A stretch of DNA of 64,000 nt. Origin: Acidobacteriota bacterium. GTDB taxonomy: Bacteria; Acidobacteriota; Vicinamibacteria; Vicinamibacterales; UBA2999. Below the pieces are notes generated by a model. The model was not told where the DNA came from. It saw only the letters and a program-made list of their open reading frames with translations, and made no database searches. The DNA is taken from the NCBI GenBank assembly GCA_021730945.1, contig JAKFYH010000023.1:1-64000 (forward strand), written 5' to 3'. Below, piece by piece: positions 17,211 to 35,820 of this stretch (positions are counted from its first letter, which is position 1; each line of letters begins with the position of its first letter). Position numbers and translations under genes: made by a program.

Positions 17211-18311
17211 ATGGTTAGTGTCGATGTGGCGGTCATCGGCGGCGGCGTCACCGGACTGGCCGCGGCGGCGGCGCTGGCCGAACGGGGGGCCTCGGTCTGC
17301 CTGCTGGAACGCGAGGCCAAGCCGGGCCGGGCCACCAGCACCCACAACAGCGGCGTGATCCACGCCGGCCTCTACTACCCCACCGGTTCGTTGAAGGCGC
17401 AGCTGTGCATCGAAGGCCGCGACCGGCTCTACCAGTTCTGTCCCAGGCACCGCGTGCCGCATGCACGGTGCGGGAAGCTGGTGGTCGCCTCTGACGAACA
17501 CGAGGTCGAGGCGTTGGCGACGCTGCTGCAGAAGGCGCACGCCAACGGCGTGACCTCCGTCATGGACGTCGACCCGGCCTTTGTCCGCGACAAGGAGCCC
17601 AACGTGCGCGCGGTGGCCGCCCTGTGGTCGCCCGACACCGGCATCCTCGAGGCTGAGGCCCTGGTCAAGGCCCTCGAACACCTCTGCCAGGACCGCGAGG
17701 TCGCGCTGGTCGTCGGCGCGCCGCTCATCGGCGCCGAACCGCACGCCGACGGCATCGAACTGGTCACGCCGCACGAGCGATTCGTAGCGCGCACGGTGGT
17801 CAACGCCGCCGGCCTGTACGCTGACGTAGTGTCGGCGGCGCTCGGCGCCCAGGCGTTCACGATCTATCCGTGCCGAGGCGAATATGCCGAGCTGGCGCCG
17901 GCCAGGCGGGCGATGGTCAACGGACTGGTCTACCCGCCGCCCCATGCTTCCGGGGCGGGGCTGGGCGTGCACCTGGCCAAGACCACGTGGGGGACGGTGA
18001 CGCTGGGCCCGACCATCCACTACCAGGAGTCGAAGGACGATTACGAAGGTGGACGACTCGCGTTGGACGCTTTCGTGGAACCGGCGCAACGATTGCTGCC
18101 GTGGGTGACGATCAAGGACCTGCAGCCCGGTGGCAGCGGCATCCGCGCCAAGCTGCACGGGCCGGACAAGAAGTTCGCAGATTTCCTGATTGAGCGCGAT
18201 CCGGTGAACCCGCGGGTGATTCAGGCGGCCGGCATCGATTCGCCGGGGCTGACGTCGTGCCTGGCGGTAGCCGAGCGGGTCGCGCGAATTTGGGCGGAGG
18301 GAACCGCCTAG
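17211..18311 (+). CDS. lhgO: FAD-dependent oxidoreductase, L-2-hydroxyglutarate oxidase (LhgO) type
   Basis: A 366-residue DAO-family flavoprotein. The N-terminal dinucleotide motif is [20 protein letters not shown]. The LhgO/L2HGDH signature [21 protein letters not shown] follows, then [28 protein letters not shown] and the C-terminal [17 protein letters not shown]. It oxidises L-2-hydroxyglutarate to 2-oxoglutarate with electron transfer to the respiratory chain or oxygen; related enzymes act on other 2-hydroxy acids. It is 24 bp downstream of the methyltransferase gene and possibly co-transcribed; a link to glycan synthesis is not evident. Its TAG shares CTAG (18308-18311) with convergent gmd. 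Confidence 0.88.
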
Positions 18312-19288
18312 GCGATGAGCTGACCCGACTTGATGCGGTCGAGGTCGGCATCCACCATCATCGTGACCAACTGGCTGAAGTTCACTGACGGCTCCCAGCC
18401 CAGTTGGCGCTTGGCCTTGCCGGGATCGCCAATCAGGTGATCGACCTCCGCCGGCCGCAGGAAACGCGGATCGACGCCGACGTGCTTCTGCCAGTCGAGG
18501 CCGACGTGGGCGAAGGCGACTTCGACAAACTCCTGCACCGAGTGGGCTTCACCGGTGGCAATGACATAGTCATCCGGCTGGTCCTGCTGCAGCATCAGCC
18601 ACATGGCACGAACATAGTCGCCGGAGAAACCCCAGTCGCGGCAGGCATCGCGGTTGCCCAGCATCAACTGGTCGGTGAGCCCCAGCTTGATGCGGGCGAC
18701 ACCGTCCGTGATCTTGCGGGTGACAAACTCGATGCCTCGTCGCGGCGACTCGTGGTTGAACAGGATGCCCGAGCACGCGAACAGGTCGTAGCTCTCGCGA
18801 TAGTTCACGGTGATGTAGTGGCCAAACACCTTGGTCACGCCGTACGGGCTGCGCGGGTAAAACGGCGTCATCTCGGTCTGCGGCACTTCGCGCACCCGGC
18901 CGTACATCTCGCTCGATGAGGCCTGGTAGAACCGGATCTTCGGATTGACGCTGCGCACCGCTTCGAGTGCGCGGGTGACGCCCTGGGCGTTGAACTCGCC
19001 GGTCAGCATCGGCTGATCCCACGACGCCGGCACGAATGACATCGCGCCGAGATTGTAGAACTCGTCGGGCTGCGACTTCTCCACCGCCTTGATCAGCGAC
19101 AACTGATCCAGCAGGTCGCCCTGCAGCAGCGTGACGCGTTCGAGAAGGTGCTGAATCCGCCACACGTTGGGCGCACTCAAGCGGCGGATGACACCGTAGA
19201 CGTCGTAGCCCTTGTCGAGCAGCAGTTCCGCCAGGTACGATCCGTCCTGGCCGGTGATGCCGGTGATGAGCGCTTTTTTGTTCGCCAA
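18308..19288 (-). CDS. gmd: GDP-mannose 4,6-dehydratase
   Basis: A 326-residue extended SDR that converts GDP-D-mannose to GDP-4-keto-6-deoxymannose, precursor of GDP-fucose, GDP-rhamnose and GDP-perosamine. Motifs: [19 protein letters not shown] (residues 6-24), [22 protein letters not shown], the YxxxK site in [18 protein letters not shown], and [14 protein letters not shown]. The next pathway enzyme (GMER, RMD or PerA) is not recognised nearby. The only start that keeps the nucleotide-binding strand is TTG at 19288; it lies 9 nt after a TACGAT -10-like box, with no Shine-Dalgarno sequence. Confidence 0.93.
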
Positions 19289-19297
19289 AACCCGACA

Positions 19298-19303
19298 ATC
19301 GTA
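19298..19303 (-). promoter_or_regulatory. Candidate -10 element (TACGAT) for gmd
   Basis: TACGAT on the minus strand, 9 nt before the TTG start, in a 51-bp divergent gap shared with the YfhO-like gene. It supports TTG as the true, leaderless start. Confidence 0.35.
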
Positions 19304-19323
19304 CCCCGCCAGGCCACTCGCTG

Positions 19324-19329
19324 TATAGT
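19324..19329 (+). promoter_or_regulatory. Candidate -10 element (TATAGT) for the YfhO-like gene
   Basis: TATAGT on the plus strand overlaps an in-frame GTG at 19328, so translation more likely starts at GTG 19340, 10 nt downstream of the box. Confidence 0.4.
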
Positions 19330-19339
19330 GTCCTCCGAC

Positions 19340-21103
19340 GTGCCGAAGACCGGCCTTTGGCCCCGCGTGTGGATCACCGCACTGTACGGGGCCCTCAGCT
19401 ACGCATTCTGCTCCCCGCTGTTTGCCCACCCGGCCGGACTGGGCGTGTACGACTGGGACCAGCACCTGTTCTACTACGGAGCGGTGCTGAAGAACGTGGT
19501 CGAGTACGGGCAGATGCCGTTCTGGAACCCGTGGTACTGCGGCGGCAACGTGCTGTGGCAGAACCCGCAAATCGCCCTGCTGAGCCCGGTCTACCCCCTC
19601 ACCGCGCTGATGCCTCTCGCCCTGGCGATGAAGATCAACATCGTCCTGCACTATTGGGCTGGTTTCATCGGCATGCACCTGCTGCTAGGCCGCGTGGTGG
19701 GGCTGCGATCGCTGCCGATCGTGCTGTTCCTGGCCACGATGTTCACCGCCTCCGGCGCGCCGGCCATCCATTTCCTGGTCGGCCACAGCGTGTTCCTGCC
19801 GGCGTTCTACCTGCCATTCCTGCTCTACTGCTACTTCACGGCCATCGAGTCCGGTCGCCTGCGGCTGGCGATGCTCGGCGGCGGGGCGATTGCCCTGATG
19901 GTGTACAACGGCGGCACGCACATCCTGCCGATGGCGTTTGCCGCGATCGGCATGCTCTCGGTCGGCATCGCCGCCATGCGGCGGCAGTGGCGCCCGATCG
20001 TGATCGGCCTGGTGTGCTGCGTGGCCGGACTCGCCTACTCGGCGCCCAAGCTGCTGCCGGTGGTGTCGTTCGTCGGCAGCGAACAATTCTGGGACACCCG
20101 GCCCGAGATTGAGCGCCCCGATCGTTCGTCGCTCGAGATGGCGGTTCGCATCTATCTCGACCCGTACCATATGAGCCGCCCCAAGTTTCCGGTGCAGCGC
20201 CACGGGTGGCACGAATACGGCAACTACATCGGCGAGTTCGCCGGCCTGCTGATTGTGGTGAGCCTGCCGTGGATTGGCTTCGCCCGGCGGTCTCATCGTT
20301 ACTGGCTCGGCCTGCCGCTCGCCCTCGCGAGCGCCGGTTTCTTCCTGCTGTCGCTCGGCGAATTTGCGGCGTGGGCGCCGGCGTCGCTGGTCACGCATGT
20401 GCCGCTGTTCTCGAGTTTTCGAATCCCGAGCCGCTACACCATTCCCTTCGTGCTGTGCGCGTCGTTGGCGGTCGCCTGGGCCGTGCGGGCGCTCGACGCC
20501 GATGCCCTGGCAGGCCGCGCCCGCGCGTTTGTCTCGGTACTCTGCATCGTCGCCGCCATTCACCTGATCGCCACCAATCGACTGCTGCTGCAGAATGTGT
20601 TCTCCCAGCCGCCCGCGACGCGGTCATTCCAGTGGATGCAGGGCCCGAAGCAAATCGAGACCGACTCGGTCACCAACGCCTACATCGCCGGATCACCGAT
20701 GTTGACCGCCCTGCTGAACGACCAGTCCTTCTTCAATTGCTACGAATCGCTGCAGTTGAAACGTACGGCTGACGCCGAGCACCCGCTGATCTTCAGCGAT
20801 AACAAGGCCAGCCTGGTCGACTCGTCGTTCACGCCCAATCGGATCGACTTCACGGTCGTCGGCGGCAGCGAACCGTCGCGCCTGTCGCTCAACCAGAACT
20901 ACGCCACCGGGTGGCGCAGTTCGGCCGGAGCCTTCACGTATGAACCCGGCGCGGCCATGCCCGGCGTGACGCTGGCGGCCGGGCAGACCGGCAAGTTCTC
21001 GTTCTCGTTCGTGCCCGACTGGTTGTGGACCGGAGTCGGCGTACTCGCCGCAGCTCTCATGCTGTCGGTGTGGGGCTGGCGTCGCCAGTTGCAGCCGTTC
21101 TGA
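19340..21103 (+). CDS. YfhO-like polytopic membrane protein (GT-C-type glycosyltransferase)
   Basis: A 587-residue inner-membrane protein with about 12 helices. The N-terminal extracytoplasmic loop carries the acidic [13 protein letters not shown] and the family-typical [20 protein letters not shown], then [11 protein letters not shown]; this pattern is shared by YfhO-type proteins implicated in glycosylation of cell-wall polymers from lipid-linked sugars. The C-terminus has an extracytoplasmic beta-rich segment ([19 protein letters not shown]) before a last helix, also as in YfhO. Single gene on this strand. GTG 19340 is chosen from the -10 box. Its 3' end overlaps the convergent gene by 47 bp. 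Confidence 0.75.
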
Positions 21104-23159
21104 GGCCCAGGCCGATCACCCGCGCCAACGCGATCCCGACAAAGGGCAGCAGCATCAGGTAGCCGGGCAGGTAGAGCCGGGTGTGATGCGGGAAGATGGC
21201 AATGATCGCGGCGAACATCGTCGCCGCAATCGCCATGGGGACGGCACGGGCCGCAATGGGAAGCGCCGCGGCCCGGCGCGGGCTTCGTAACGCGACCAGG
21301 AACCCGGCCGCCGCCGTCAGCCACCACACCATCAGGACCATCGACCAGCCGGCACCGGGAACGAAGGGGTCGAAGTACCCGAATGCGTACTGGCATTTTC
21401 GCCAGAGGTTGGCGAGAAACTCCCGTGGTGCGTGGCGAGCAAACTCGATCACCGGCCGGCTGCGTTCGCTCCCGGCCAGCCATCGATCAAGGGCGTGCTC
21501 GCCGGCCGGGTGTTGGGGCACCGCGCGCGGAGGCTCGTTGCCCAGGTAGAGGTTGACACCGAAACTGGTGGTGATTGGCACGACCGTTCCCGAGACGATG
21601 AAATTGCGGACGGTCGCCAGGCTGACGACGGCCGCCATGACGGCAAGCATCAAGAGCAGGCCGCGCCGCCGCGCCGGTGGCAGGGCGAACCACATCAGTA
21701 CCATGACTGGCGGTACGGCCAGCAGCAGAGTCGATCGGCCCAGCACCGCCAGTCCGCCGGCCAGGCCGGCGACGACCGCCATGCGCCATCCAGCGCCGGC
21801 ATCGAGACTGCGCAGCAACACGCACGCCCATGCCACCACCAACGGCACGAACACGGTTTCGGTCCACAGTTCAGCAGCCCAGCGATCGACCCAGAGGAAG
21901 AACAAGCCCGTGCCGATCAAGGCAGTCAGCACGCCCGCCCGCGGACCGTCGAGGCGATGGGCCATCCAGCTCAGTCCCAGAATGGCCAGGCCCATGGCCA
22001 GGCGCTGCAGGAGGAATGCGCCAAACAATCCCTCGCCAAACAACAGGTGGGTGGCGGCCAGGATATAGGCATAGAGCGGTTGGTAGTAATAGGCCTCGAC
22101 CTGGCCGGCGACACCCCCCATCAACATCAGCGGACCGTTGAAGACGATGTCGCGGGCGTAGGTTTGATAGGTAAGCGGGTCGTCGCCGCCGGCTTGCAGG
22201 ATCAGCCGGCCCGCGACCGGCCACGCGAACCGGGCCGCTTCGGCGATCGCGGCAGCGATCGCCAGGGCGAACATCGCGTGCCGCTGTTCATCGCCGCGCC
22301 TGCACCATGCCTGTCGTACGGCTGCCGACAGGGCGGTGAGGGTGGCCCAGCCCAGTATGGCGACGAGAACCAGGTCGATCGCCATGCTGGCGGCGCGGAC
22401 CACGCCGTCCAGCTGCATCGCCCTTCGCGAAACCGGCGAGCGATAAACCGGCGCCGAGCCCAACGGCCGCTCGCTGCCTGACGCATCGATACTGCCTGCT
22501 TCAAAATCGCGCGCCATCTGGTCGCGCCCGGCGGCGCGCACAACCAGGTGCCGCCATCCCTTGGCATAGAGCGCGGTGGCCGTCGCGGTCTGCTCACCAG
22601 GCGCCAGTGTGACGAGCCGAGCGCCATCCAGCTCAAGACTGCCGTCAAGCGCGGTCGCTTTCAGGTAGAACGTGCGGGCACGCTCGCCCTCCTCGACCCA
22701 GACGTAGCCGTCCCACACCACCGAGAACGGCAGCCGTGCCCGGTGCGGTTCGCCGCCCTGATAGAAATTGAAGCGGCCGACGTCGTTAAAGAAATACAGC
22801 GGCAGGTCCGGCGCCCCGGGGCGTCCGAAGGCGAGCCGGCGATCGACGCGGGTGGCGTCGGTCTCGTGATGCTCAAGGCTGCGCTCGATTGGAGCCGTGA
22901 ACTCGCTATTGGCGAAGTACGAGGCTGAGAATCCCTGCGGCACCAGGAGCCAGGAGCTGGCGACCTTGAGGACCAGGCACGCCGCCACCGGCCACGCCGT
23001 CCCGAGCCGTCGTGACCAGCCCCACGTCCACCAGATCGCAGCCACCACGACGGCCTCGGCCGGACCGAGCGGCACGCCATCGAGCAGGCCCCATCCCGCG
23101 ATCGGAATCAGCGAGTACGCCGTCCACAGGAGCGGCCCCCACCACGTCGTGCGCGTCAC
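21057..23159 (-). CDS. GT39/ArnT-like membrane glycosyltransferase with PA14-like extracytoplasmic domain
   Basis: A 700-residue membrane protein. After one or two N-terminal helices, a soluble domain (about residues 77-211) resembles PA14: SYFANSEFTAPIERS, LPFSVVWDGYVWVEEGE, ALDGSLELDGARLV, GWRHLVVRA. A hydrophobic core like dolichyl-phosphate-mannose transferases follows, with the extracytoplasmic QAGGDDPLTYQTYARDIV carrying the acidic pair expected after helix 1 of GT39 and LGRSTLLLAVP typical of PMT_2. PA14 domains bind carbohydrate, so acceptor recognition is plausible. GTG 23159 is preferred over GTG 23192 because it lies 9 nt after a TATACT box; the longer form would overlap the divergent gene. 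The last 47 bp overlap the YfhO-like gene. Confidence 0.78.
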   Translation of the reverse strand: MTRTTWWGPLLWTAYSLIPIAGWGLLDGVPLGPAEAVVVAAIWWTWGWSRRLGTAWPVAACLVLKVASSWLLVPQGFSASYFANSEFTAPIERSLEHHETDATRVDRRLAFGRPGAPDLPLYFFNDVGRFNFYQGGEPHRARLPFSVVWDGYVWVEEGERARTFYLKATALDGSLELDGARLVTLAPGEQTATATALYAKGWRHLVVRAAGRDQMARDFEAGSIDASGSERPLGSAPVYRSPVSRRAMQLDGVVRAASMAIDLVLVAILGWATLTALSAAVRQAWCRRGDEQRHAMFALAIAAAIAEAARFAWPVAGRLILQAGGDDPLTYQTYARDIVFNGPLMLMGGVAGQVEAYYYQPLYAYILAATHLLFGEGLFGAFLLQRLAMGLAILGLSWMAHRLDGPRAGVLTALIGTGLFFLWVDRWAAELWTETVFVPLVVAWACVLLRSLDAGAGWRMAVVAGLAGGLAVLGRSTLLLAVPPVMVLMWFALPPARRRGLLLMLAVMAAVVSLATVRNFIVSGTVVPITTSFGVNLYLGNEPPRAVPQHPAGEHALDRWLAGSERSRPVIEFARHAPREFLANLWRKCQYAFGYFDPFVPGAGWSMVLMVWWLTAAAGFLVALRSPRRAAALPIAARAVPMAIAATMFAAIIAIFPHHTRLYLPGYLMLLPFVGIALARVIGLGLRTAATGDASPTPTA

Positions 23160-23168
23160 CGTTCGGTT

Positions 23169-23176
23169 AGTATAGT
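23169..23176. promoter_or_regulatory. Symmetric divergent -10 pair (AGTATAGT)
   Basis: TATAGT on plus (23171-23176) and TATACT on minus (23169-23174) overlap by four bases between two divergent membrane-glycosyltransferase genes. Minus: 9 nt to GTG 23159. Plus: 4 nt to GTG 23181. One AT-rich melting site could serve both directions. Confidence 0.4.
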
Positions 23177-23180
23177 GACA

Positions 23181-25103
23181 GTGTTCGGTCACCTGTTGGA
23201 CTCGCCCCGAACCACCCGCCTTGCCTGCGTTATCTCACTCGCCTTCGGGTTGTTCTTCACGTTCGTGTGGGCGCCGCACCCCTGGAGTTGGGAAGGCATC
23301 GACCAGTATCACGAGCTCGCGCGGGCGCTGGCGCGGGGGGAAGGATTTGGCACGACCGACGTGCCGTGGGGCTACGCCTACTATGTGGCGTTGTTCTACT
23401 CACTGTTCGGCGTCCACCCGGTGCCGCCGATTCTTGGGCAGGTGCTCGCCAACGCGGCCATGCCGCTGCTGCTGTTCGCGCTCGTCCGGCCCCTCGCCGG
23501 CCAGCGCACCGCCGCGCTCTCGGCGCTGATTGTCGGAATTTTTTCCTTCAACACGGTCTACGCATCCACGCAGGTCTCCGACGCGATCTGCTCGGTGTTG
23601 TTCATGGCCGCGGTCCTGTGCTTTGCGCGAGGCCATGCCGCGGGCCGGCAGTGGTACTTCGCCGGCAGCGGGCTGCTCGCCGGCCTGGTGCCGCAGTTCC
23701 GACCCAACCTGCTGCTCCTGCCGGCGATGGTGGCCGTTCTATACGTCACCTGGACCTGGTTGGCGGCCTCGCGGCAGCAGCTGGGCCGCGCCGCCGTGGC
23801 CATGAGCCTCTTGCTTGGCATCAGCGTCCTGGCGCTGGTGCCATGGGTGGTCCACAACTATCGATTAACGGGCGTGTTCCTGCCCACCAGCTCCCACGGT
23901 GGAATCCAGTTGTGGTACGGCACGCTCCAGGTGGGGCCATATCTCGAGAACTACAGCGCCAATCCGCGTACCGTCTTCGCGACGCCGGTGTTCGACTATT
24001 CAAGCCTGTCCGGCCAATCGATCGTCGTTTCAGCAGTCGTTGCGGACTGCGCGAGCGCCGGCCCCGCCCCCACCCTCGTGTACTGGACCGATCGCAACAC
24101 CACCCCGGCCACGATTACACCGTCGGCGATCAACGGCCGCGCGCTCGAGTTTGCGATCCCGGGGCAGCCCGATCCGACGGCGGTGTACTGGCGGATCAAT
24201 GCGGCCGGCGCATCGGCCGCCGAATCGCTGTACTACATCGCGTCCGACCATACCGGCGATCTCGATCGTCACGATGACTGGCTTGACGTCTTCGACGTGA
24301 TTCGCCTGGCACGGCACCTGGCCTGGGCTGAGCCGGTTCCAGCCGGGCCGCTTGCCGACTTCGACGGCAACGGCCGCGTTGAGCGCGCCGACCTGGCCGC
24401 GGCGGTGTTTCGGCTGTTGGGCTACCAGGTTCCGGGTGTGCCGCCGTTGGGCGGCTTGGTGGCCGAGCCGGCCGTCGCAACGTTGCAGTTTTCGGACGGC
24501 TCGTACCTGCGGATACCCAACACGTTTACCGGCCGCGTCACCGACCTTGATGTGCGGGGCGGGCTGGCAGGCCGGTTGCTCTCGGCGAAGATCCGCACGT
24601 CGGCATCGCCGGCCAGCTCCCCCAGTTGCGGAGTCGTGGATGCCGCCGGTGTCAACGACGTGTTCTACCGCCGGGAGCTCCAGCAACTGGCCCGCTTTGG
24701 CGCGCTCGCACTCGACAACATCGGCCGCGACCCGCTGGCGTTTGCCGCCGCATCGGCCTACCGCGCAGTTCGACTGTTCGTGGTGCGTCCCTCAGGCGAC
24801 CTGGCCACGACCTACCAGTTCGCGTCTGGACGGCTGGCCTACACCTCCGGCCTCGTACTGTCGTTGTTGTATTTCGGATTGTTCCTGGCGGGCGTGGTGG
24901 CGGCGTGGCGCCAGCGCTCGGCGCTACTGCCCTTGCTGGTGCCGATTGTCTACGTGCCAGCCACTATTTGCTTTGTGCTGACGAACCAGCGCTACACCGT
25001 GACGGTACAGCCGCTGATGTTTGCGTTCGTGGCGCTGGCCCTGGTGAGGGTCCTGGGGTGGGATCGAGACGGGGCCGCGGCGGTGAAGGCCAAGGCCGCC
25101 TAG
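23181..25103 (+). CDS. GT39-like membrane protein with embedded dockerin-like domain
   Basis: About 640 residues. The N-terminal half (to about 230) is a PMT_2/GT39-type membrane core: WSWEGIDQYHELARALARGEGF has the acidic extracytoplasmic motif after helix 1, and FRPNLLLLP and LVPWVVHNY are typical. Instead of the usual short loop, about 290-560 is an extracytoplasmic region containing a dockerin type I-like pair of calcium loops (about 356-416): GDLDRHDDWLDVFDVIRLA and DFDGNGRVERADLAAAVFR, each with Asp/Asn ligands at EF-hand spacing followed by a helix. Four or five helices close the protein. GTG 23175 is also in frame but lies in the -10 box. Its stop shares CTAG with the convergent WecA-like gene. 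Confidence 0.78.
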   Translation: MFGHLLDSPRTTRLACVISLAFGLFFTFVWAPHPWSWEGIDQYHELARALARGEGFGTTDVPWGYAYYVALFYSLFGVHPVPPILGQVLANAAMPLLLFALVRPLAGQRTAALSALIVGIFSFNTVYASTQVSDAICSVLFMAAVLCFARGHAAGRQWYFAGSGLLAGLVPQFRPNLLLLPAMVAVLYVTWTWLAASRQQLGRAAVAMSLLLGISVLALVPWVVHNYRLTGVFLPTSSHGGIQLWYGTLQVGPYLENYSANPRTVFATPVFDYSSLSGQSIVVSAVVADCASAGPAPTLVYWTDRNTTPATITPSAINGRALEFAIPGQPDPTAVYWRINAAGASAAESLYYIASDHTGDLDRHDDWLDVFDVIRLARHLAWAEPVPAGPLADFDGNGRVERADLAAAVFRLLGYQVPGVPPLGGLVAEPAVATLQFSDGSYLRIPNTFTGRVTDLDVRGGLAGRLLSAKIRTSASPASSPSCGVVDAAGVNDVFYRRELQQLARFGALALDNIGRDPLAFAAASAYRAVRLFVVRPSGDLATTYQFASGRLAYTSGLVLSLLYFGLFLAGVVAAWRQRSALLPLLVPIVYVPATICFVLTNQRYTVTVQPLMFAFVALALVRVLGWDRDGAAAVKAKAA

Positions 25104-26605
25104 CGGTTGCGCTCGCCAGCCTGACGGCGTTGCGCCACGGTATCCACCAGGCGAAACGATCCACGCACGGCCGAGGCCAGCGCGGCCACCAGGACAAAAT
25201 AGATGACAAAGACGGCGCGTGAGTAACTGGTGTAGTGATACAGGTAGACGATCACCAGCTGCGCCGCTGCCGTCCCCAGCAGCGCGCCCTTGAGAAGGGT
25301 GACACTGTCGCGCACCCCAAACAGGTGCCAGGTGCCGCGGTACACCCCGACGACGAAAAACGCTATCAACTGGGCGGCCAGGATGACCGGCAGCGATTCA
25401 TAGAATGTCTCGACGTTGGCCAGGTAGTCGCCATCGGTGAATCGCAGCCGATAGGCACCGTAGTAGGCCGCGCCAATCACGCAGAAGTCGATCACGACCT
25501 CCAGGACACGCCGCTTGTACATGAAGTCGGCAATCAGCGGGGTGATGGCCTCGCGCGGCGGCGCCGCCTGGTCGTCGTAGACCCGGATTCGAGCCAGATA
25601 CACGGCGAACGCGCTCATGGCCGCCAGAAACACCGCCGCCGGCACGAACGACAGGCCCTCGGTGGCATTGCGCAGAGTGAGGCCAATCACGCCGCCGACC
25701 GCTGCCAGAAACCACAGCACGAACACCGCGGCCCGCTCCGACAGGCCCATGGCCACCAGGCGATGCGAGGAATGATCGCGGCCCCCGACCGCTGGTGAGC
25801 GTCCGGACAGCAGACGCGCCGTGGTCACCAGCGTGGTGTCGAAGATCGGAATCAACAAGAGGAACACCGGCCCGGCGATTACCGACAGCACATCGGTTCG
25901 ACTGGCGCGAATGCCTTCGGGACTGAGGGTCAACGACGCAACCGTAAACCCGAGAAACAGGCTGCCGCTGTCGCCCATGAAGATCGACGCCGGAGGAAAA
26001 TTGAACAGCAGGAAACCACTGGTCGCCCCCAGCAACAACGCCAGCAACATCACTTGATTGCCGGCCTCGTCGCGGGTGGCGCCAGTCAGGAGCCCCGCGA
26101 TCAGCATCGCCGTGACCACGATCGTGACACCGGCCAGCAGGCCATCCATGTTGTCGAGCAGGTTGAAGGCGTTGGTCAGGCCCACCACCCAGACGATGGT
26201 CAGGAGGCTGTTAAGCAAGCGAGACTCGACCCAGCTCAGGCTGTAGCCGAAGTACACCAGCAGCGCCGCCAGCGTGATCTGGGCGATCAGCTTGGTCGAC
26301 GGCTTCAGCGTCAGCAGGTCGTCGACCAACCCGACCACGAATATCAGCAACGCCGCCGCCACCGGCACCACCATCGACATGGCCACACCCGTGACGAGGG
26401 CCCCGGCCAATGTCGCCACCGCGATGCCCACCCCGCCCAACAGCGGCACGGTCTGCCGATGCCAGCGATCGTTGCGGGGATGCGCCACTACGCCGATGCG
26501 CAGCGCCAGCACTCGACAGATCGGCAATAACGCAAGGGCCAGCGCGAGACCCACGAGCAGCGGTGGCACCACTGGTCTGAGCGCCTCGGGAATCATCTCA
26601 GACAT
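25100..26605 (-). CDS. wecA: WecA/MraY-family sugar-1-phosphate transferase with extra C-terminal FlaA1/WbpM-type membrane domain
   Basis: A 501-residue polytopic protein. Residues 1-360 are a GT4-type polyprenyl-phosphate N-acetylhexosamine-1-phosphate transferase: HPRNDRWHRQTVPLLGGVGI, VGLVDDLLTLKPSTKLIAQ with the catalytic Asp pair, NAFNLLDNMDGLLAG, GDSGSLFLGF and the cytoplasmic HSSHRLV. It would start glycan assembly on undecaprenyl phosphate. WecA proteins usually end near 350-370 residues. Here about 130 residues follow (KRRVLEVVIDFCVIGAAYYG, YRLRF, VGVYRGTWHLFGVRD), resembling the N-terminal membrane domain of FlaA1/WbpM-type UDP-GlcNAc dehydratases without the dehydratase. ATG 26605 overlaps the preceding gene by 8 nt. 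Confidence 0.88.
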   Translation of the reverse strand: MSEMIPEALRPVVPPLLVGLALALALLPICRVLALRIGVVAHPRNDRWHRQTVPLLGGVGIAVATLAGALVTGVAMSMVVPVAAALLIFVVGLVDDLLTLKPSTKLIAQITLAALLVYFGYSLSWVESRLLNSLLTIVWVVGLTNAFNLLDNMDGLLAGVTIVVTAMLIAGLLTGATRDEAGNQVMLLALLLGATSGFLLFNFPPASIFMGDSGSLFLGFTVASLTLSPEGIRASRTDVLSVIAGPVFLLLIPIFDTTLVTTARLLSGRSPAVGGRDHSSHRLVAMGLSERAAVFVLWFLAAVGGVIGLTLRNATEGLSFVPAAVFLAAMSAFAVYLARIRVYDDQAAPPREAITPLIADFMYKRRVLEVVIDFCVIGAAYYGAYRLRFTDGDYLANVETFYESLPVILAAQLIAFFVVGVYRGTWHLFGVRDSVTLLKGALLGTAAAQLVIVYLYHYTSYSRAVFVIYFVLVAALASAVRGSFRLVDTVAQRRQAGERNR

Positions 26606-27587
26606 GGTAATCGGTCTGGCGTCCCGCCGGTGCCGCGCGCTCAGGGATCGCCCGCAACACGACCAGCGGAACCAGCACCGGCACCCAGAGCCGCCACTCC
26701 CATGGCTCGGCAAAGACGTGGACGAACCCGAGATACGGCAGCGACAGGGCGGCGAACCACATCCGTTCGCGCAGGTTGCGTCCACCGGCCAGCAACAACA
26801 CCAGCGACGCCGCCAGCATGGCCGACCCGGTCAGCGAGAACCAGTTCAAGTTCGACCACCACTGCCAGGCATAGAAGACACTGCTCGCACCCGACCAGCC
26901 AACGACGGCGCGGACGCCGACGTAGACCACGACCACCGCACTTGAACTGGCGACCAACGTCGCTCGGGCCGCCCGGTCGCCGGCGAGGATGGCGCGGTGA
27001 TGCACGGCGAGGTAGAAGACGGGAATGAAATACGCCGTCTCGCGAGTCAACGTCGCCAGGCCGGTGACAACTACCAGGGGCAGAAGCGCAGTGCCGGCCG
27101 CGGCCGAGAGCGTGATCAGCACCGCGGCCATCTGGAAGGCGAAGAACACCCCGTCGTACGGGGTGACTACGAAAGCTGCAATGGCCACCGCCAGGGCGAC
27201 GCCGGCAACGACCAGCTCAGGCGCCCCCTCGTCTGGCGGCGAACTGCGGCGAAGGGCGACCAGCAACAAACTACAGCCAATGCACGTCGCCAGCGTGTGC
27301 ACGACGACGTAGGCCCAGTAGGTGGCGGCGTTTCCGAGCGGATCCAGCAGGAGCAACGCCCGCGGCACCGGCCAACCGACGGCCAGGGGCTCGAACACAG
27401 CCGACAGCCACTGCACCAGGTAACGTCCGACGATGCGGTACTGGAACACGCTGCGCTGATATTGCCCGGCCAGGCCGGAAGTGGAAAACACGTCGGTCGT
27501 GTAGTTGGTGAAGAACCCGAAGAAGGCGATCAGCGAAAAGCCCGCCGGCAGGATCCAGGCGGCACAGATAAACCGCAGGGCCCGCAT
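26598..27587 (-). CDS. Polytopic membrane protein, GT-C-like, unrecognised
   Basis: A 329-residue protein, almost entirely hydrophobic, with about 9-10 predicted helices and no motif I can assign to a named family. The first extracytoplasmic loop after helix 1 is short (FFTNYTTDVFSTSGLAGQYQRS) and contains one Asp. The segment LTRETAYFIPVFYLAVHH resembles the cytoplasmic LxRE/TxxxF stretch of GT-C enzymes. It is shorter than typical GT39 proteins. ATG 27587 overlaps the asnB stop as TGATG and its own stop overlaps the WecA-like gene, so all three are coupled. Possibly a small glycosyltransferase or polymerase-like protein; low certainty on function, high on coding. Confidence 0.7.
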   Translation of the reverse strand: MRALRFICAAWILPAGFSLIAFFGFFTNYTTDVFSTSGLAGQYQRSVFQYRIVGRYLVQWLSAVFEPLAVGWPVPRALLLLDPLGNAATYWAYVVVHTLATCIGCSLLLVALRRSSPPDEGAPELVVAGVALAVAIAAFVVTPYDGVFFAFQMAAVLITLSAAAGTALLPLVVVTGLATLTRETAYFIPVFYLAVHHRAILAGDRAARATLVASSSAVVVVYVGVRAVVGWSGASSVFYAWQWWSNLNWFSLTGSAMLAASLVLLLAGGRNLRERMWFAALSLPYLGFVHVFAEPWEWRLWVPVLVPLVVLRAIPERAAPAGRQTDYHV

Positions 27588-29543: not shown

Positions 29544-31382
29544 TCACAACCAACCGCGCCACCAGTAGACGGCGATGGCGGCATACTCCTGCAGGATGCC
29601 GCGGACCTGCTCAACGCTGGCGCCGATCGTGTGGTCGTAGAACTGGGCCTGCGGCGGCGGCACCGGGATCACCGCCACATCTGGCGCGAGGTTCTGCCAG
29701 ACCAGGTCAGCGCGACGCATGTGGTACGGCGAACTGACCAGCAGGATCGTCCGCCAGTTCCGCGCCCTGAGAATCTCGGTGGTGTAGGTGACGTTCTCAC
29801 GGGTGTTGGTCGCGCGCAGCTCCAGCACGATGCGGTCAGCCGGTACGCCCTGGTCAATAGCCAGCGCGCGCATGACTTCGGCTTCCTTGAAGCTGTAGAC
29901 GTAGCCGGACGACAGGATCAGCGCCGGCGCGAACCCGCTGCGGTAGAGATCCACGGCCTGCTTGAGACGCTCCTGGGCGCCGCCACCGGCGCGTCCCGAC
30001 TCCCCGACGCCGCCGGCAAAGACCACGACAGCATCGGCCTGCTGCGGCGGTGCCGACAGGCGGAGCGGCTCGGCCGCCCACCAGACGAGGTTGGTCTGGA
30101 ACACCAGCAGGTAGGCCGCTGCCACGCCCAGCACGATGCGGGCGGTGTGGCCACGGGCGCGGCGATAGACGCGACGCAGGGCCGCGTCCCAGCGCTGCTC
30201 GCCGGCCGAACGGCGCGCCAGCGCCTGGTCGATCAGCACGCCCATGGCATCGATGCGGCTGCGCCAGCTGTTGCTTTGCGCCACTTCCCGGCGCCGCGCC
30301 ACGACCGTGGGCTGGGTCTCGGTCAGCGCGGTGCGAATGGCCTGGGCGAACGCCTGCGCAGTGGCGGCGACGTGCACCACTTCGCCGTGATCGCGATTGA
30401 ACCGCCGAATCTCGGCCAGGTCAGTGGCCACCACCGGCGTGCCCATGGCCAGGTACTCGTTCAGCTTGGTGGGATAGACGTTGGCCGTGTACTCGGCGAT
30501 CTTGTACGGCACCAGGCCGACGCCAAACGCCTTCACGTAGGCGGGCACCTGGGCGTGGTCACGCTGGCCGAGTAACTTGATGTTCGGCCGCGACTGCAGG
30601 ACGGATACGTCAACCTGCGCGGGCCCGACCATGGCAAAGGTGACGTCGGGCATCAGGCCGGCCACGGCGGAAAGCAGCTCTTGATCGACCCACTGGTGCA
30701 GGCCGCCGACATATCCGACCACTGGTCCCGCCAACGCCGCGATGTCGGCCGGCGGCGGGGCGGCGCTGTCGCGGGTCTGCTCGAACCGGGCCAGGCTGAC
30801 GCCAAACGGAAACAGGTGCACCTGGCCCGCCGACTGCGCGGCGCGGACCCGCAACTTCTCGGAGGTCACAAACACCAGGTCCGCTTCACGGAACAGGGCC
30901 TGCTCGCTGGCGACGATCTTGCGCGCGCCGGCGGAACTCGACGCCAGGTCGTCGATGCAGTAGTAGATCGTCAACAGCTTGTCGGTGCCGCGGATCAGGT
31001 CGCGCGCCAGCGGGGTTGGCAGAAAGGTCCACACGATCGGCCGATGGAACCCGGTCACCCGCATCCAGCGCTGCATCGCGCGCTGCATGAAGAACGCGTT
31101 AATCCATCGCGCGATTCGTGAGTATGGAAACGGCAAAAGCAGCGGCGAATAGACGAACAGGTTCTCTCGTTCCTCGCGGAACCCCTTGGTCGCACGCCAC
31201 CAGCTAAGCAGGCGCTTGCGGATGCGCGGGAAGTCGCCCACCGAAGGAGCGCGGACGCCCGTGTTCTCCACAAACAGCACGCGGTGCCCCTCGGCCGCGT
31301 AGGTCGACATGATCTCCTGGTGACCCTGCCAGATAAAGTCCCAGTCGATCGACGAGATGCAGAGAATGTCGTGACGGGTCAT
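29544..31382 (-). CDS. Fusion: GT4-type glycosyltransferase plus membrane-anchored DUF218 (YdcF/ElyC-like) domain
   Basis: 612 residues. Residues 1-395 form a GT-B glycosyltransferase (GT4-like): ILCISSIDWDFIWQGHQEIM at the N-terminus, VVGYVGGLHQWVDQELL, VGPAQVDVS, and the donor-site segment VYPTKLNEYLAMGTPVVATD. A single hydrophobic helix (about 414-436) leads into a DUF218 domain (449-600): ADAVVVFAGG, ILSSGY, ATNTREN (524-530) and SSPYHMRRA. DUF218 proteins (YdcF, SanA, ElyC) act at the envelope, and ElyC affects undecaprenyl-phosphate metabolism. If the helix crosses the membrane once, the two domains lie on opposite faces. ATG 31382 is chosen because the glycosyltransferase fold starts there; 19 bp separate it from the upstream GT4. 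Confidence 0.85.
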   Translation of the reverse strand: MTRHDILCISSIDWDFIWQGHQEIMSTYAAEGHRVLFVENTGVRAPSVGDFPRIRKRLLSWWRATKGFREERENLFVYSPLLLPFPYSRIARWINAFFMQRAMQRWMRVTGFHRPIVWTFLPTPLARDLIRGTDKLLTIYYCIDDLASSSAGARKIVASEQALFREADLVFVTSEKLRVRAAQSAGQVHLFPFGVSLARFEQTRDSAAPPPADIAALAGPVVGYVGGLHQWVDQELLSAVAGLMPDVTFAMVGPAQVDVSVLQSRPNIKLLGQRDHAQVPAYVKAFGVGLVPYKIAEYTANVYPTKLNEYLAMGTPVVATDLAEIRRFNRDHGEVVHVAATAQAFAQAIRTALTETQPTVVARRREVAQSNSWRSRIDAMGVLIDQALARRSAGEQRWDAALRRVYRRARGHTARIVLGVAAAYLLVFQTNLVWWAAEPLRLSAPPQQADAVVVFAGGVGESGRAGGGAQERLKQAVDLYRSGFAPALILSSGYVYSFKEAEVMRALAIDQGVPADRIVLELRATNTRENVTYTTEILRARNWRTILLVSSPYHMRRADLVWQNLAPDVAVIPVPPPQAQFYDHTIGASVEQVRGILQEYAAIAVYWWRGWL

Positions 31383-31401
31383 GGATGCGGGCGCCACTAT
31401 T

Positions 31402-32586
31402 CTAGCGGAGCGAGTCGTAGGCTTCGGTCCAGCGCTGGCGCGCCGCCTCGAGGCCGTAGCGGCTGACCACGGTCTCGCGGGCGTGGGCGCCGAGACGCGA
31501 TGCTTCGGCCGGCTGGCGGAGCACGCGCAGAATGGCTTCGGCCAGGGCCTCGGGATCACGCGGCTCGACCAGGATGCCGGTCACGCCGTCATCGACAATC
31601 TCGTCGGTCACCTGCTCGATGCGTGAGGCGACCACCGGCAAGCCCGACGCCATCGCCTCGACCAGCACCATGCCGAAGGCCTCGCGCGAGGATGGCATGA
31701 CAAAGATGTCGGCCGCGTGGTACGCCGACTCGACGTTGGCCATCGGTCCGGTGAACCGCACGCGATCGCCGACGCCCAGGTCGGCGGCCCTCGCCGTGAT
31801 CGCCGCGGCCAGCGCCTTGTCCACCTCGTGATACTCGGAGTCGGTTTCGCCCACGAAGATCAATCCGGTCGGCGGCGCGCCGAGCTCAGCAAGTCGCAGC
31901 CACGCGTCAAACAGCACATCGGGACACTTTTCACGCGAGAAGAACCCGACGAACAGGATCCAGTAGAGGTCGTCCGACAGCGGCGCCAGAGCCTGGCGGG
32001 CCACCTGCCGTTGCTGTCGCGTCGGCGGGTGAAAGCGAGCAACATCAAGGCCATTGGGCGCGAGCTTGACCTTTGTTGGCGGCAGGCCGGCGGCCAGGTA
32101 GTTGTGAGCGATCCGCGAGCTGATGGCCAGGTACAGGTCGGCCTGCCGATAGGCCCAATAGGTCAGCCAGCCCAGTTGCCGCGCCGCGACGGCTTCGTCG
32201 GAACCGGCGGTGTGAATGGTCAGCATGATGCGCTTGCCAAACAACCTGGCGAGCACCACCATCAGGATCGACTTCTGCGAGAAGCCATGCAGGTGCACGA
32301 GTTCGAAGGTGTGGCGCTCGGCGAGAAAAAACCGCACCGTCCGTAGCGCCGCCATCAGCTTCGAGAGGCGGCTCGCGACGTTGACCCGCACCCGCATTAC
32401 CGGCGTGCCCTCGACCTCGGAGACACGAGGCAGCCGGCGATCGGTGCAGGTGGTGAAGACGCGAAAGCGAAAGCGGTCGCCGAGCGCGTGGATCATGGTC
32501 CGGCACTGCAGGCCGCCGCCGCTCAGTTCGGGCCAGTAGGCGCCGGTGACCATCAGCACACCGCGGTCGCTCGCGGCACTCTTCAA
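31402..32586 (-). CDS. Glycosyltransferase family 4
   Basis: A 394-residue cytoplasmic GT-B retaining glycosyltransferase. The N-terminal domain opens with GVLMVTGAYWPELSGGGLQ, the usual acceptor-side glycine-rich loop. The C-terminal Glycos_transf_1 domain has LAPNGLDVARFHPP, WILFVGFFSREKCPDVL, RVRFTGPMANVESAY, and the donor-binding EX7E-type segment PSSREAFGMVLVEAMASGLPVVA. It probably adds one sugar in repeat-unit assembly. The start is TTG at 32586, supported by the Shine-Dalgarno AAGGAG 5 nt upstream. A 48-bp, very GC-rich gap with palindromic GCCGGCCGGC separates it from the DUF1552 gene. Confidence 0.92.
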   Translation of the reverse strand: MKSAASDRGVLMVTGAYWPELSGGGLQCRTMIHALGDRFRFRVFTTCTDRRLPRVSEVEGTPVMRVRVNVASRLSKLMAALRTVRFFLAERHTFELVHLHGFSQKSILMVVLARLFGKRIMLTIHTAGSDEAVAARQLGWLTYWAYRQADLYLAISSRIAHNYLAAGLPPTKVKLAPNGLDVARFHPPTRQQRQVARQALAPLSDDLYWILFVGFFSREKCPDVLFDAWLRLAELGAPPTGLIFVGETDSEYHEVDKALAAAITARAADLGVGDRVRFTGPMANVESAYHAADIFVMPSSREAFGMVLVEAMASGLPVVASRIEQVTDEIVDDGVTGILVEPRDPEALAEAILRVLRQPAEASRLGAHARETVVSRYGLEAARQRWTEAYDSLR

Positions 32587-32634: not shown

Positions 32635-34083
32635 CTAGAGGTTGGGCAGCGGCGATCGCCGATCGCCGAAGTTGTACTGCCCCTTGAAGTTCACGCGGTA
32701 GTCGCCGAACCCGGGTTCCTCCCCGGTCTCCCACTCCTTGTGGGTCAGGCCCATCTTCGTCATCAGCGTGATCAGCAACTCGTTATAAGGCCGGCCAAGG
32801 TCAGGACCGTTGAGGTCCTCGCGGCCATCCTCCCACATGATCACCTTTTGTTGCGGCTTCTGGTAGTTGATGAACCGATTGGTCTTGATCCGCCCGCCCG
32901 CCCCGCCGATCAGCATGACCTGCATGTCGTTGCTGTAATGCGGATTGCCAACCTTGATGTTGTAGACGCCTGACTCATTGCCCCAAAACACCAGGCTGTT
33001 GTCCAGGTAAGTGGCGCCCGTCTCGGGGTCTTCAACCACGTCGAGCTGGGTGAGGAACTCCGCCACCAGGGCCGAGTACCACTGGTTGATCTTCACGAGT
33101 GGCTCGATATTCAGGTCGTGCGTCAGGTTATGGTGGTTGGTGGCGCTGACCCCTGTGAGCCACGAGAACGAACGCTGCTCCTGGCTGTGGGCCAACTGCA
33201 ATCCGTAGACCCGGCACAGGTCGGACTTGATCGACGACACGATCAGCGTGGCGTAATTGCGGAGAATCTCGCCCGCGCTCGGTTCATCCCGATCGCGAAT
33301 TGGCACCAGCGCCGGGCGGCTGGTGCCGCGTGGCAGTGGCCGCAGCGACTGTTTCTCCACCTGGCGGAGGAAGCTGACGTGGGCATCGAGGCGCTGGCGG
33401 TCATCGGTCGACAGCCGCGGGTCAGCCAGCAGGCTGCGCATCTCCCCGGCCACCGAGTCGATCACGGAGGTGCGGGTGTCCTGGTTGATGGGCGTGGGAA
33501 ACATCCGCTGAAGGACCACCGACGGGTCGGTGTAGGGAACCACCGGAGAAACCAGGGTGCCGTTGCGCGCGACCGACAGCGGCAGGTACTTCATCTCGCT
33601 CTGGCCGTCGGCGACGACGTTCAGGGACCGCAGCCAGGGTTCGCGTGAGTACACGGCCGGCGACATCGCCATCATCTGGTCGATGGTCGGCCGTAACGGG
33701 CGCGCCTCGCCGTAGCCACTCATCATCTTGGTGGCGATGTGCGTGTTCTCGTTCAGGACCGCGGCATCAAGGCCGCGAATCAGCACCATCTTCTTGCGGA
33801 ACCGATCGAACTCCGGTCCGATCACCAGGGACAGCGGACCCCGGATATCGGTCAGAGCGGCTTCCCTGATATTGGGCCCGGTCTGGACGAAGTTGACGGG
33901 CTGGGTCGGATACCAATTCGCGTCGTGCTGGCCGTTGGCGCTGAAGATGGCGATGAATCGCCGCGGGAACCGCACGGTTTGCGCGGCGCCGCGGGCCGCC
34001 AGCGATGGCAGGAACGGCAGCGCCAACGCGGCGCCACCGGCCCCTTTGAGAAAACGGCGGCGGCTAAGGTCGAGTCGTGACAT
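32635..34083 (-). CDS. DUF1552 family protein with Tat signal
   Basis: 482 residues. The N-terminus SRRRFLKGAGGAALALPFLP is a twin-arginine signal, so the protein is exported folded, probably to the periplasm. The rest matches DUF1552, a family found mostly in planctomycetes, acidobacteria and relatives, nearly always paired with a DUF1592/DUF1588/DUF1585 cytochrome-like protein, as here. Conserved-looking segments: FSANGQHDANWYP, RGLDAAVLNENTH, SQEQRSFSWLTGVSATNHHNLTHD and GNESGVYNIKVGNPHYS. Members resemble DUF1501/sulfatase-like folds; biochemical function unknown. The start ATG lies 20 nt inside the upstream DUF1592 gene, so the two are coupled. Confidence 0.92.
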   Translation of the reverse strand: MSRLDLSRRRFLKGAGGAALALPFLPSLAARGAAQTVRFPRRFIAIFSANGQHDANWYPTQPVNFVQTGPNIREAALTDIRGPLSLVIGPEFDRFRKKMVLIRGLDAAVLNENTHIATKMMSGYGEARPLRPTIDQMMAMSPAVYSREPWLRSLNVVADGQSEMKYLPLSVARNGTLVSPVVPYTDPSVVLQRMFPTPINQDTRTSVIDSVAGEMRSLLADPRLSTDDRQRLDAHVSFLRQVEKQSLRPLPRGTSRPALVPIRDRDEPSAGEILRNYATLIVSSIKSDLCRVYGLQLAHSQEQRSFSWLTGVSATNHHNLTHDLNIEPLVKINQWYSALVAEFLTQLDVVEDPETGATYLDNSLVFWGNESGVYNIKVGNPHYSNDMQVMLIGGAGGRIKTNRFINYQKPQQKVIMWEDGREDLNGPDLGRPYNELLITLMTKMGLTHKEWETGEEPGFGDYRVNFKGQYNFGDRRSPLPNL

Positions 34084-35803
34084 CGGTCTGTGGTTCCTTC
34101 GTCGCGTGACGCCTGACGACTCCCTTGAGCACGCTGCGGACACTACCACCCGGACCCATCAGATCGCCGGCAAGAACCGGCAGGGCCGCCAGGTCGTCGG
34201 CGCCGAGGGGACGGCCGGAGACGAATGTGGTGAGCTGTTTGACAAAGCAAGTGTTGGCCTTCCGGCTTGTCCCCAGCAACGCGCTGAGCGCCGCCGGGCC
34301 GTCAATCTCGGGCTCGGAGCGGCTCTCGGCGAAGGGTACGACGGCGGCATCGATGGCCAACTCGGTGAAGGCCTCCGGCGAGGAGTTGGGAATCAAATGG
34401 CGCTCAACCGTTCGGAAGCGGCCAATGCCATCGTACGGCTCGAACGAGAATCCCAGCGGGTTGATCATGCGGTGGCAGCCCTGGCAGATTGGCGGCGAAG
34501 TCCGCGCCTCCCAGCGCTGCCGGGTAGTCATCCGGTGGTCCGGGGCCGGCGGTACCAACGAACCCGGCGGCAGAGCGGCAGGGTCGGGCGGACTCAACGG
34601 ATCGCACAGGATCTGGCGCCGCACCATGGCCCCGCGCTTGACCACCGAGGCCTCATCGGTGCCACGCGCCAAGAGCGCTACACGGGTCAGGATACCGGCA
34701 CGGTTGCCCGGCGCCAGTTCGACGCCGCGCGCCGGCGTCGCTGGAAGCCCATAGATTTGGCGAATCGACGCCGACTCGGTGAGCACCTTTCGAGACGTCA
34801 TCAAGTCGCGGAAACTGCCGCCATCGGTCCACACAATCGCGTCGATGAAGCGTTCGAGCTCGACCACGGCGTTGTCATGCAGGTGCGCGCGGTCGATAGT
34901 CCCCAGGAACGGCCACGAATAGCCCTCAACGGGAATGTCCTCGTAGTGCAGCCATTGCCGGAAGAACATCCGCAACCACTGCCGGGACTTGACGTTGCCC
35001 AGCATCCGCCCGAGCTGCGTGTCGAGCTTGGCGTCGTCCAGCAGGTCCCCCGCGCCGGCGGCGGCCAGCAGCGCGGCATCGGGCATGGTGCCCCACAAGC
35101 CGTAGGACAGGCGCGACGCGCGCGCGTAGCTCTCGTCGACCCGGGCCTGATCGCAGTCGTCACCGGTGCGGGTCGGGCCGGCACCGTGCTTGAAGATGAA
35201 GGACGGTGAGATCAGGACGCGGGTAATCAGCGCGCTCAGCGCCCGAGCCGGCGACTGGGCGTGCTGGGCCGAATAGAAGCCCAGTAAGTCTTCGCGTTCG
35301 CGCGGTTCGAGCGGGCGGCGAAAGGCGCGGGTAGCGAAGGTGTCGAGAAACGACTCCAGGCACGCCGCAGTGAGGTTCGCGCGATCGGTAGCGCATGGAA
35401 GAATCTTCCGGCGAATCCAGGGCATAACGCTGATCTGGACGCCCAGTTCGTTGGCAACACCCAGGTAGCCGCTGACATGGTCTGCCGAGAGCGACCAGTT
35501 GATGTTGGTAAACCCACCCTGACGGTCATCGTCTGGAATGCCGGCGATCAGGCCCGCCAGCGCGGGCAGGCCGTTGGCAATCTCGGCGCTGATCAGATCG
35601 CGAACCGTACGCTCGTATTCCACTTTCGACAGCCGGCTCAACGGTTCACGGGCAGGCGGCCGGCCATCGGCGCAATCCACGGGACCGGTGGCGCCGGCCA
35701 TCAACGCGGTCCTCGCGGACGTGGCCGGGACCACTCCGCCACCGGCCAGAACCGCCACGACCACAAGCAGAAGGAGTCGCATAGCTGACGAGCTTTCAGC
35801 CAT
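34064..35803 (-). CDS. DUF1592/DUF1588/DUF1585 (PSD1-type) cytochrome-like protein
   Basis: 579 residues with an N-terminal Sec-type signal (RLLLLVVVAVLAGG, then PATSA). Order of domains: DUF1587-like start (LSRLSKVEYERTVRDLI), DUF1595 (ATRAFRRPLEPREREDLLGFY), DUF1592 (RVDESYARASRLSYGLWGTMPD), DUF1588 (RAGILTRVALLA, VKRGAMVRRQILCD) containing a heme-type CQGCH followed by RMINPLGFSFEPYD, and C-terminal DUF1585 (KQLTTFVSGRPL). One CXXCH suggests a c-type heme, but these families are uncharacterised. ATG 35803 is preferred over TTG 35815, which overlaps the -10 box. It is first in the run down to 25100; its 3' end overlaps the DUF1552 gene by 20 bp. Confidence 0.92.
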   Translation of the reverse strand: MAESSSAMRLLLLVVVAVLAGGGVVPATSARTALMAGATGPVDCADGRPPAREPLSRLSKVEYERTVRDLISAEIANGLPALAGLIAGIPDDDRQGGFTNINWSLSADHVSGYLGVANELGVQISVMPWIRRKILPCATDRANLTAACLESFLDTFATRAFRRPLEPREREDLLGFYSAQHAQSPARALSALITRVLISPSFIFKHGAGPTRTGDDCDQARVDESYARASRLSYGLWGTMPDAALLAAAGAGDLLDDAKLDTQLGRMLGNVKSRQWLRMFFRQWLHYEDIPVEGYSWPFLGTIDRAHLHDNAVVELERFIDAIVWTDGGSFRDLMTSRKVLTESASIRQIYGLPATPARGVELAPGNRAGILTRVALLARGTDEASVVKRGAMVRRQILCDPLSPPDPAALPPGSLVPPAPDHRMTTRQRWEARTSPPICQGCHRMINPLGFSFEPYDGIGRFRTVERHLIPNSSPEAFTELAIDAAVVPFAESRSEPEIDGPAALSALLGTSRKANTCFVKQLTTFVSGRPLGADDLAALPVLAGDLMGPGGSVRSVLKGVVRRHATKEPQTDVTTRP

Positions 35804-35814
35804 CTTCACGCTCA

Positions 35815-35820
35815 ATCATA
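35815..35820 (-). promoter_or_regulatory. Candidate -10 element (TATGAT) for the DUF1592 operon
   Basis: TATGAT on the minus strand, 11 nt before ATG 35803, in the 53-bp gap that separates the 28-kb upstream operon from the DUF1592-to-WecA run. This is the largest gap in the co-directional block 25100-64000. Confidence 0.4.

Follow-up and report, generated by a model that had tools for sequence, protein, structure and literature searches.

A dockerin-like paired-loop module in the insertion of a GT-C-like membrane glycosyltransferase from an Acidobacteriota bacterium

Dockerins are familiar chiefly as the plugs of secreted enzymes. What, then, would a dockerin-like module be doing inside a membrane-bound glycosyltransferase? 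The question is raised by a 64,000-nucleotide stretch of an Acidobacteriota genome (contig JAKFYH010000023.1; the whole stretch is called the window below), for which a sequence-only reading had placed two EF-hand-like loops with following helices in a large insertion of a PMT_2-like protein and suggested that they tether the enzyme to a cohesin-bearing surface protein or gate it by calcium. Our analysis confirms a dockerin/EF-hand-like module in the insertion of such a transferase and points to a role other than the two suggested.

The open frame of the host protein continues upstream of the GTG start to 23016 (for coordinates see Table 1). Residues 62-213 match Pfam PMT_2 (4.3e-12, 47 bits against a cut-off of 26.1), and a full-length AlphaFold2 (AF2) model calculated from nine sequences (mean pLDDT 77.2, pTM 0.72) retrieves Pmt4 (1.0e-5), ArnT (5.9e-3) and PglB (7.1e-3 to 9.5e-3) from the PDB with Foldseek, at TM-scores that are low (at most 0.38), the match resting on the transmembrane part. 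The predicted fold is GT-C-like. D43 would be the candidate catalytic aspartate, a role which we assume from other GT-C enzymes. Hydropathy shows nine peaks above 1.4, six before the insertion and three after it; because the full model suggests a further helix at 159-174, the number of transmembrane segments before the insertion is six or seven. By the common GT-C topology the insertion would lie outside the cytoplasmic membrane; we infer both this extracytoplasmic site, from GT-C homology, and the sugar chemistry of the enzyme.

Table 1. Positions of the transferase gene, its parts and the genes discussed with it (window coordinates unless another contig is given).
Feature	Position	Strand	Basis or remark
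GT-C / PMT_2-like membrane glycosyltransferase ORF, 642 aa	23175..25103	+	GTG start
D43 codon, GID motif, first loop of transferase	23301..23303	+	invariant 9/9
Insertion, ~200 residues, about 281-480	24015..24614	+	missing from 7 shorter aligned homologues
Ig-like beta-sandwich, residues 283-355	24021..24239	+	AF2 models (full, insert)
Dockerin-like paired loop-helix module, residues 360-416	24252..24422	+	profile matches, AF2 helices
Loop 1, D362-D374, DLDRHDDWLDVFD, 13 residues	24258..24296	+	D362, D364, D371, D374 invariant
Loop 2, D395-D406, DFDGNGRVERAD, canonical 12-residue EF/dockerin loop	24357..24392	+	D395/D406 in 8/9
Small beta segment, residues 425-461	24447..24557	+	both AF2 models; fold not identified
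Second PMT_2 protein	21057-23192	-	PMT_2 match
Glycos_transf_4 enzyme	25100-26785	-	
GDP-mannose-dehydratase-like epimerase	18308-19678	-	
830-aa TPR-secretin protein, cohesin-like C-terminal domain	G000:C3:9000-13500 (L037:123-2612)	+	Pfam

Judged by its neighbours, the transferase gene is part of a surface-polysaccharide-type cluster, which besides the genes of Table 1 also holds two asparagine synthases, several group 1 and family 2 glycosyltransferases and a DegT aminotransferase. To the eye, the N-terminal stretch of the second PMT_2 protein resembles a PA14-type beta domain; Pfam at E<=1 returned no PA14 match for this protein. Two further loci in the vicinity deserve mention: a single frame at 29547-31559 (-) combines a group 1 glycosyltransferase region with a DUF218 domain, and an HXXSHH (DUF1552) plus PSD/PSCyt (DUF1585-1595) gene pair is located at 32638-35815 (-) within the polysaccharide cluster.

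The insertion is delimited by seven of 18 partial matches, short frames of single-domain length (435-483 aa), which align with 0-24 of the 75 residues 281-355, with 11-32 of the 57 residues 356-412 and with 0-13 of the 68 residues 413-480. Its parts follow each other in the order Ig-like domain, dockerin-like module, small beta segment. The two loop motifs lie where they had first been noticed, at 24240-24428, corresponding to residues 356-418. Loop 1 reads DxDxxxxxxDxFD, which is one residue more than the canonical dockerin loop and leaves position 5 without a conserved ligand. In both AF2 models (full length and insert only) one helix follows each loop, at 372-384 and 404-415; averaged over blocks of ten residues, pLDDT in the module is 69-90 for the full model and 60-93 for the insert model. 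The two models treat the start of loop 1 differently: residues 362-368 are coil in the full model, and residues 359-366, including D362 and D364, are helical in the insert model, where the predicted conformation is thus not a canonical EF loop.

Single-sequence scans gave weak results. Pfam and NCBIfam scans of the ORF did not find a dockerin, Dockerin_1 (PF00404) at E<=1 matched neither the whole ORF nor an 82-aa fragment, and the window domain alone reached 13.0 bits against this model, under the curated cut-off of 22.9. A search of the PDB with the ORF returned 12 weak rows, the best of which (E 0.0035) is a serine-protease fragment and several of which are unrelated. A profile of relatives was needed. 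Built from eight module sequences (omitting locus L030, in which loop 2 is lost), this profile matches the PDB dockerin 5lxv_B at 6e-5, the alignment taking in both loops and having a one-residue gap in loop 1; a wider family profile gives 0.0019. The entry 5lxv_B is the crystallised dockerin of a carbohydrate-binding protein, presumably from Ruminococcus flavefaciens. Two rows of calcium-binding proteins (4.6e-5 and 5.7e-5) stand above it, and among the best 60 of 251 matches at E<=1 most are calmodulins matching loop 2; only in 5lxv_B does the best stretch, among these 60, span both loops. Dockerin_1 itself matches seven of the eight family domains at E<=1 (best 5.5e-4). When the whole genome of one relative (G007) was scanned with it, the orthologous domain was the sole match at E<=0.01 (E 0.0038; 19.4 bits, short of the 22.9 cut-off). 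In the window genome, such a scan at E<=1 missed the transferase domain and gave weak matches at two different places (14.4 and 13.0 bits), in whose proteins Pfam at E<=0.01 found no dockerin.

Further support comes from the reverse direction. A small dockerin HMM, which is not independent because its seven dockerin domains had been picked up with the family's own profile, ranks the transferase ORF first among 563 window frames (E 2.5e-4, with the runner-up at 2.2) and gives the window domain 16.5 bits against 6.0 bits for the best of 2000 shuffles. Its inclusion threshold is passed by six of the nine distinct sequences (window, L004, L006, L007, L008 and L009), with L010 (10.8 bits) and L005 (9.9 bits) below it and L030 unmatched (-0.4). 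Alignment of the family module with distant dockerins by hhalign yields a probability of 96.8 (E 2.7e-10 over 49 columns, the first of them within loop 1), a result biased by the fact that the distant dockerins were found with the family's profile. Eleven distant, weak loci had been obtained in a phylum search; in all four that were scanned with Pfam, the matched place scores over the Dockerin_1 cut-off, and the proteins are multidomain, having cohesin, Ig or peptidase domains. A dockerin motif is present by eye in L055, L059, L062 and L064, and in L060, L061 and L065 the match is to the profile's Ig-like part. Two distant phylum members (L056 and L057) have Cohesin and Dockerin_1 in one chain. 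Altogether, the profile comparisons show the module to be homologous to dockerins.

Conservation was counted over nine distinct sequences, L029 having been dropped as a repeat of L008. Eight residues are invariant, namely H359, D362, D364, D371, F373, D374, R377 and W384. Of the predicted ligand positions, the orthologues keep the loop-1 aspartates in 9/9 and the first and last aspartates of loop 2, D395 and D406, in 8/9; L030 is the exception, and loop-2 positions 3 and 9 are variable. Mean pairwise identity over the predicted ligand columns is 0.735, a value reached in 3 of 20000 random draws, compared to 0.362 over the insert. The source of this signal is loop 1 (identity 1.0; 0 of 20000 draws as high); the ligand columns of loop 2 alone (0.522) are not unusual (2059 of 20000). 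Among the parts of the protein, identity decreases from the N-terminal core (0.53) over the module (0.44) to the beta part (0.33) and the Ig-like part (0.32).

The distribution of transferase plus insert is narrow among the genomes searched. In 60 relatives (own genome included), the transferase protein finds matches at E<=0.001 in 17 genomes, eight of which hold full-length matches (42-100 % identity). The insert profile matches eight of 43 family genomes, i.e. seven of nine in the genus plus G013 of another genus. In a phylum draw of 396 genomes, with five candidates scored per genome so that a miss is weak evidence, full matches were found in five genomes, all of the same genus, and ten others gave weak, partial matches. 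A GTDB scan added two loci, L029 and L030. The latter (VBAP01000075.1) is a 17-kb contig filed under ANGP1 (Terrabacteria group); its neighbours resemble the window's cluster (e.g. an asparagine synthase at 59 % and a glycosyltransferase at 67 %), so that cluster transfer or misbinning is possible.

From these results we favour, at a probability of roughly 0.57, a calcium-stabilised internal structural module in the insertion of a GT-C transferase, rather than a plug for a separate cohesin. In this scenario a GT-C transferase of a surface-polysaccharide cluster would carry, in the large loop after its N-terminal transmembrane core, an Ig-like domain and the dockerin-like module; the latter would bind one or two Ca2+ ions and act as a stiff internal element, keeping the extracytoplasmic domain in place over the active site and giving the acceptor side its shape. 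This reading is supported by the GT-C core, by the dockerin homology, by the gene's position among glycosyltransferase and sugar-processing genes of the cluster, by the invariance of the loop-1 aspartates in all nine sequences while the surrounding Ig-like and beta parts average 0.32-0.33 identity, and by the retention of the module in seven of nine genus genomes with no dedicated cohesin seen. The invariant non-ligand residues H359, F373, R377 and W384 would fit packing against the host protein. Several observations count against it: loop 1 has no conserved position-5 ligand and begins as a helix in the insert model, loop 2 is lost in L030 and varies at positions 3 and 9 elsewhere, the window domain alone stays under the Pfam cut-off, dockerins are best known as interaction modules, and a cohesin-like domain is present once in the genome.

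The Ig-like part would allow a different function for the insert as a whole. VIA-align of the insert model aligns this part with the PPAD chain 6i0x_A (Z 8.6) and, over PPAD, amylase and filamin domains, gives Z values of 7.4-8.6, which according to the tool may reflect a common arrangement only; the Ig-like sequence profile reaches E 0.058 against PPAD. Most of the VIA-align rows fall on insert-model residues 1-88 (the Ig part) and none listed is a dockerin, so that the comparison speaks to the Ig part rather than to the dockerin-like one; Foldseek returned zero structures for the insert model at E<=0.001. Since alpha-amylase chains and CBM41 are among the structures aligned with the Ig part (Z 7.4-8.3), and the four scanned distant dockerin matches belong to multidomain proteins, the Ig-like and dockerin-like insert could be a glycan-binding or acceptor-recognition appendage from another extracellular protein in which calcium only stabilises. 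We consider this unlikely: no sign of a ligand site was seen, and a Z near 8 carries the tool's caveat just given.

No more convincing to us, and equally unlikely, is the regulatory half of the sequence-only reading, according to which the module is a sensor of extracytoplasmic calcium that turns the transferase on or off. The position in the insertion and the conserved aspartates would suit such a switch, but L030 has lost loop 2 and kept the rest of the enzyme.

The tether requires a partner, and a search of the window genome for cohesins gave a single match (genome scan E 1.5e-4, 23.6 bits; cut-off 24.1). It belongs to an 830-aa protein with TPR, Secretin_N and Secretin domains, in which Cohesin covers residues 714-790 (protein scan 8.1e-5, 23.3 bits), and which is nearest to the GspD and PilQ models, under their cut-offs. 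The proposed link to a cohesin-bearing surface protein is not supported by our data: the sole candidate is a secretin whose cohesin score is below the cut-off, and cohesin matches occur both with and without the transferase. At E<=0.01, Cohesin matches are present in 46 of the 60 relatives, comprising 8/8 with the transferase and 38/52 without it; 43 of these 46 have one each, and 32 of all 49 matches fall in frames of 790-1070 aa (the secretin assignment covers the protein of the window genome only). Because the matches do not follow the transferase, a cohesin partner was rejected as the leading reading. Scans of the window genome with Cohesin, Dockerin_1 and the family profile revealed no cellulosome-like system and no dedicated cohesin.

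A working dockerin could nevertheless plug into the cohesin-like C-terminal domain of the secretin, or into an unrecognised cohesin, and couple surface glycosylation to an envelope machine. The module would be the only candidate cohesin partner seen, as scans of the window genome show no other dockerin: Dockerin_1 gives none over its cut-off, and the family dockerin profile at E<=0.1 finds the transferase gene as its sole match. The secretin protein carries the Cohesin match given above, and every transferase-bearing genome has a cohesin match. These points are countered by the cohesins of the 38 relatives without transferase, by Dockerin_1 exceeding its cut-off in only seven of the 60 relatives (the window genome not among them), so that cohesin matches do not follow dockerins either, by the subthreshold score of the genome's own cohesin, and by the missing loop 2 of L030. 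We therefore hold this coupling to be quite unlikely; it is possible that the secretin serves as an unspecific partner of the module.

There is also the view that no metal is bound at all, the resemblance being fortuitous or the module degenerate, an acidic helical stretch. Here the window copy alone, under the Pfam cut-offs, and the non-canonical loop 1 speak in its favour; the helical start of loop 1 in the insert model raises its standing and lowers that of the calcium-stabilised structural module. A chance resemblance would, however, have to accommodate a family profile that matches 5lxv_B over both loops, Dockerin_1 matches in seven of eight members, the genome-wide match in G007, the shuffle control, helices after both loops in both models and loop-1 aspartates invariant in 9/9, and is decidedly improbable. 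Least credible of all is that the module, as a true dockerin in the periplasm, docks the inner-membrane transferase onto the cohesin-like end of a secretin belonging to a type II secretion system or a pilus machine, with secreted or pilus substrates being glycosylated on their way out, which we regard as highly improbable.

Among known systems, dockerins such as PF00404 and 5lxv_B share with the module the two loop-helix repeats in about 57 residues. Unlike them, the present module is internal to a membrane enzyme, its loop 1 is one residue longer and its two repeats are unlike each other; in contrast to dockerin systems, no dockerin of the window genome exceeds the cut-off, and its one cohesin match is weak. 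A literature search, which covered few subscription papers, found among the papers listed no description of a dockerin in a GT-C enzyme. According to the accessible part of PMC5301203, XDoc dyads likewise have a separate module directly before the dockerin; they stand at the C-terminal end of ScaB and CttA, with the ScaE cohesin as their partner, whereas here the pair is internal to a transferase that has no known cohesin. Dockerins on proteins with no part in cellulose degradation also occur in ANME archaea, for which the available text of PMC9012536 describes proteins with up to five cohesins, dockerins on ABC-transporter binding proteins and S-layer-domain proteins, and, in contrast to our case, no dockerin-bearing glycosyltransferase. 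The accessible portions of PMC11452385 and PMC10066038 mention cohesins or dockerins and no glycosyltransferase carrying one.

If the structural reading is true, a dockerin-like calcium module can work as an internal component, structural or regulatory, of a membrane glycosyltransferase; the transferase is a small, testable case. On the enzyme side, the similarity to PMT_2, Pmt4, ArnT and PglB extends from the PMT_2 profile over the GT-C-like transmembrane core to the extra-membrane domain that follows. The inserts differ: those of eukaryotic PMTs are MIR domains and PglB has others again, whereas the insert of the present transferase consists of an Ig-like plus a dockerin-like part.
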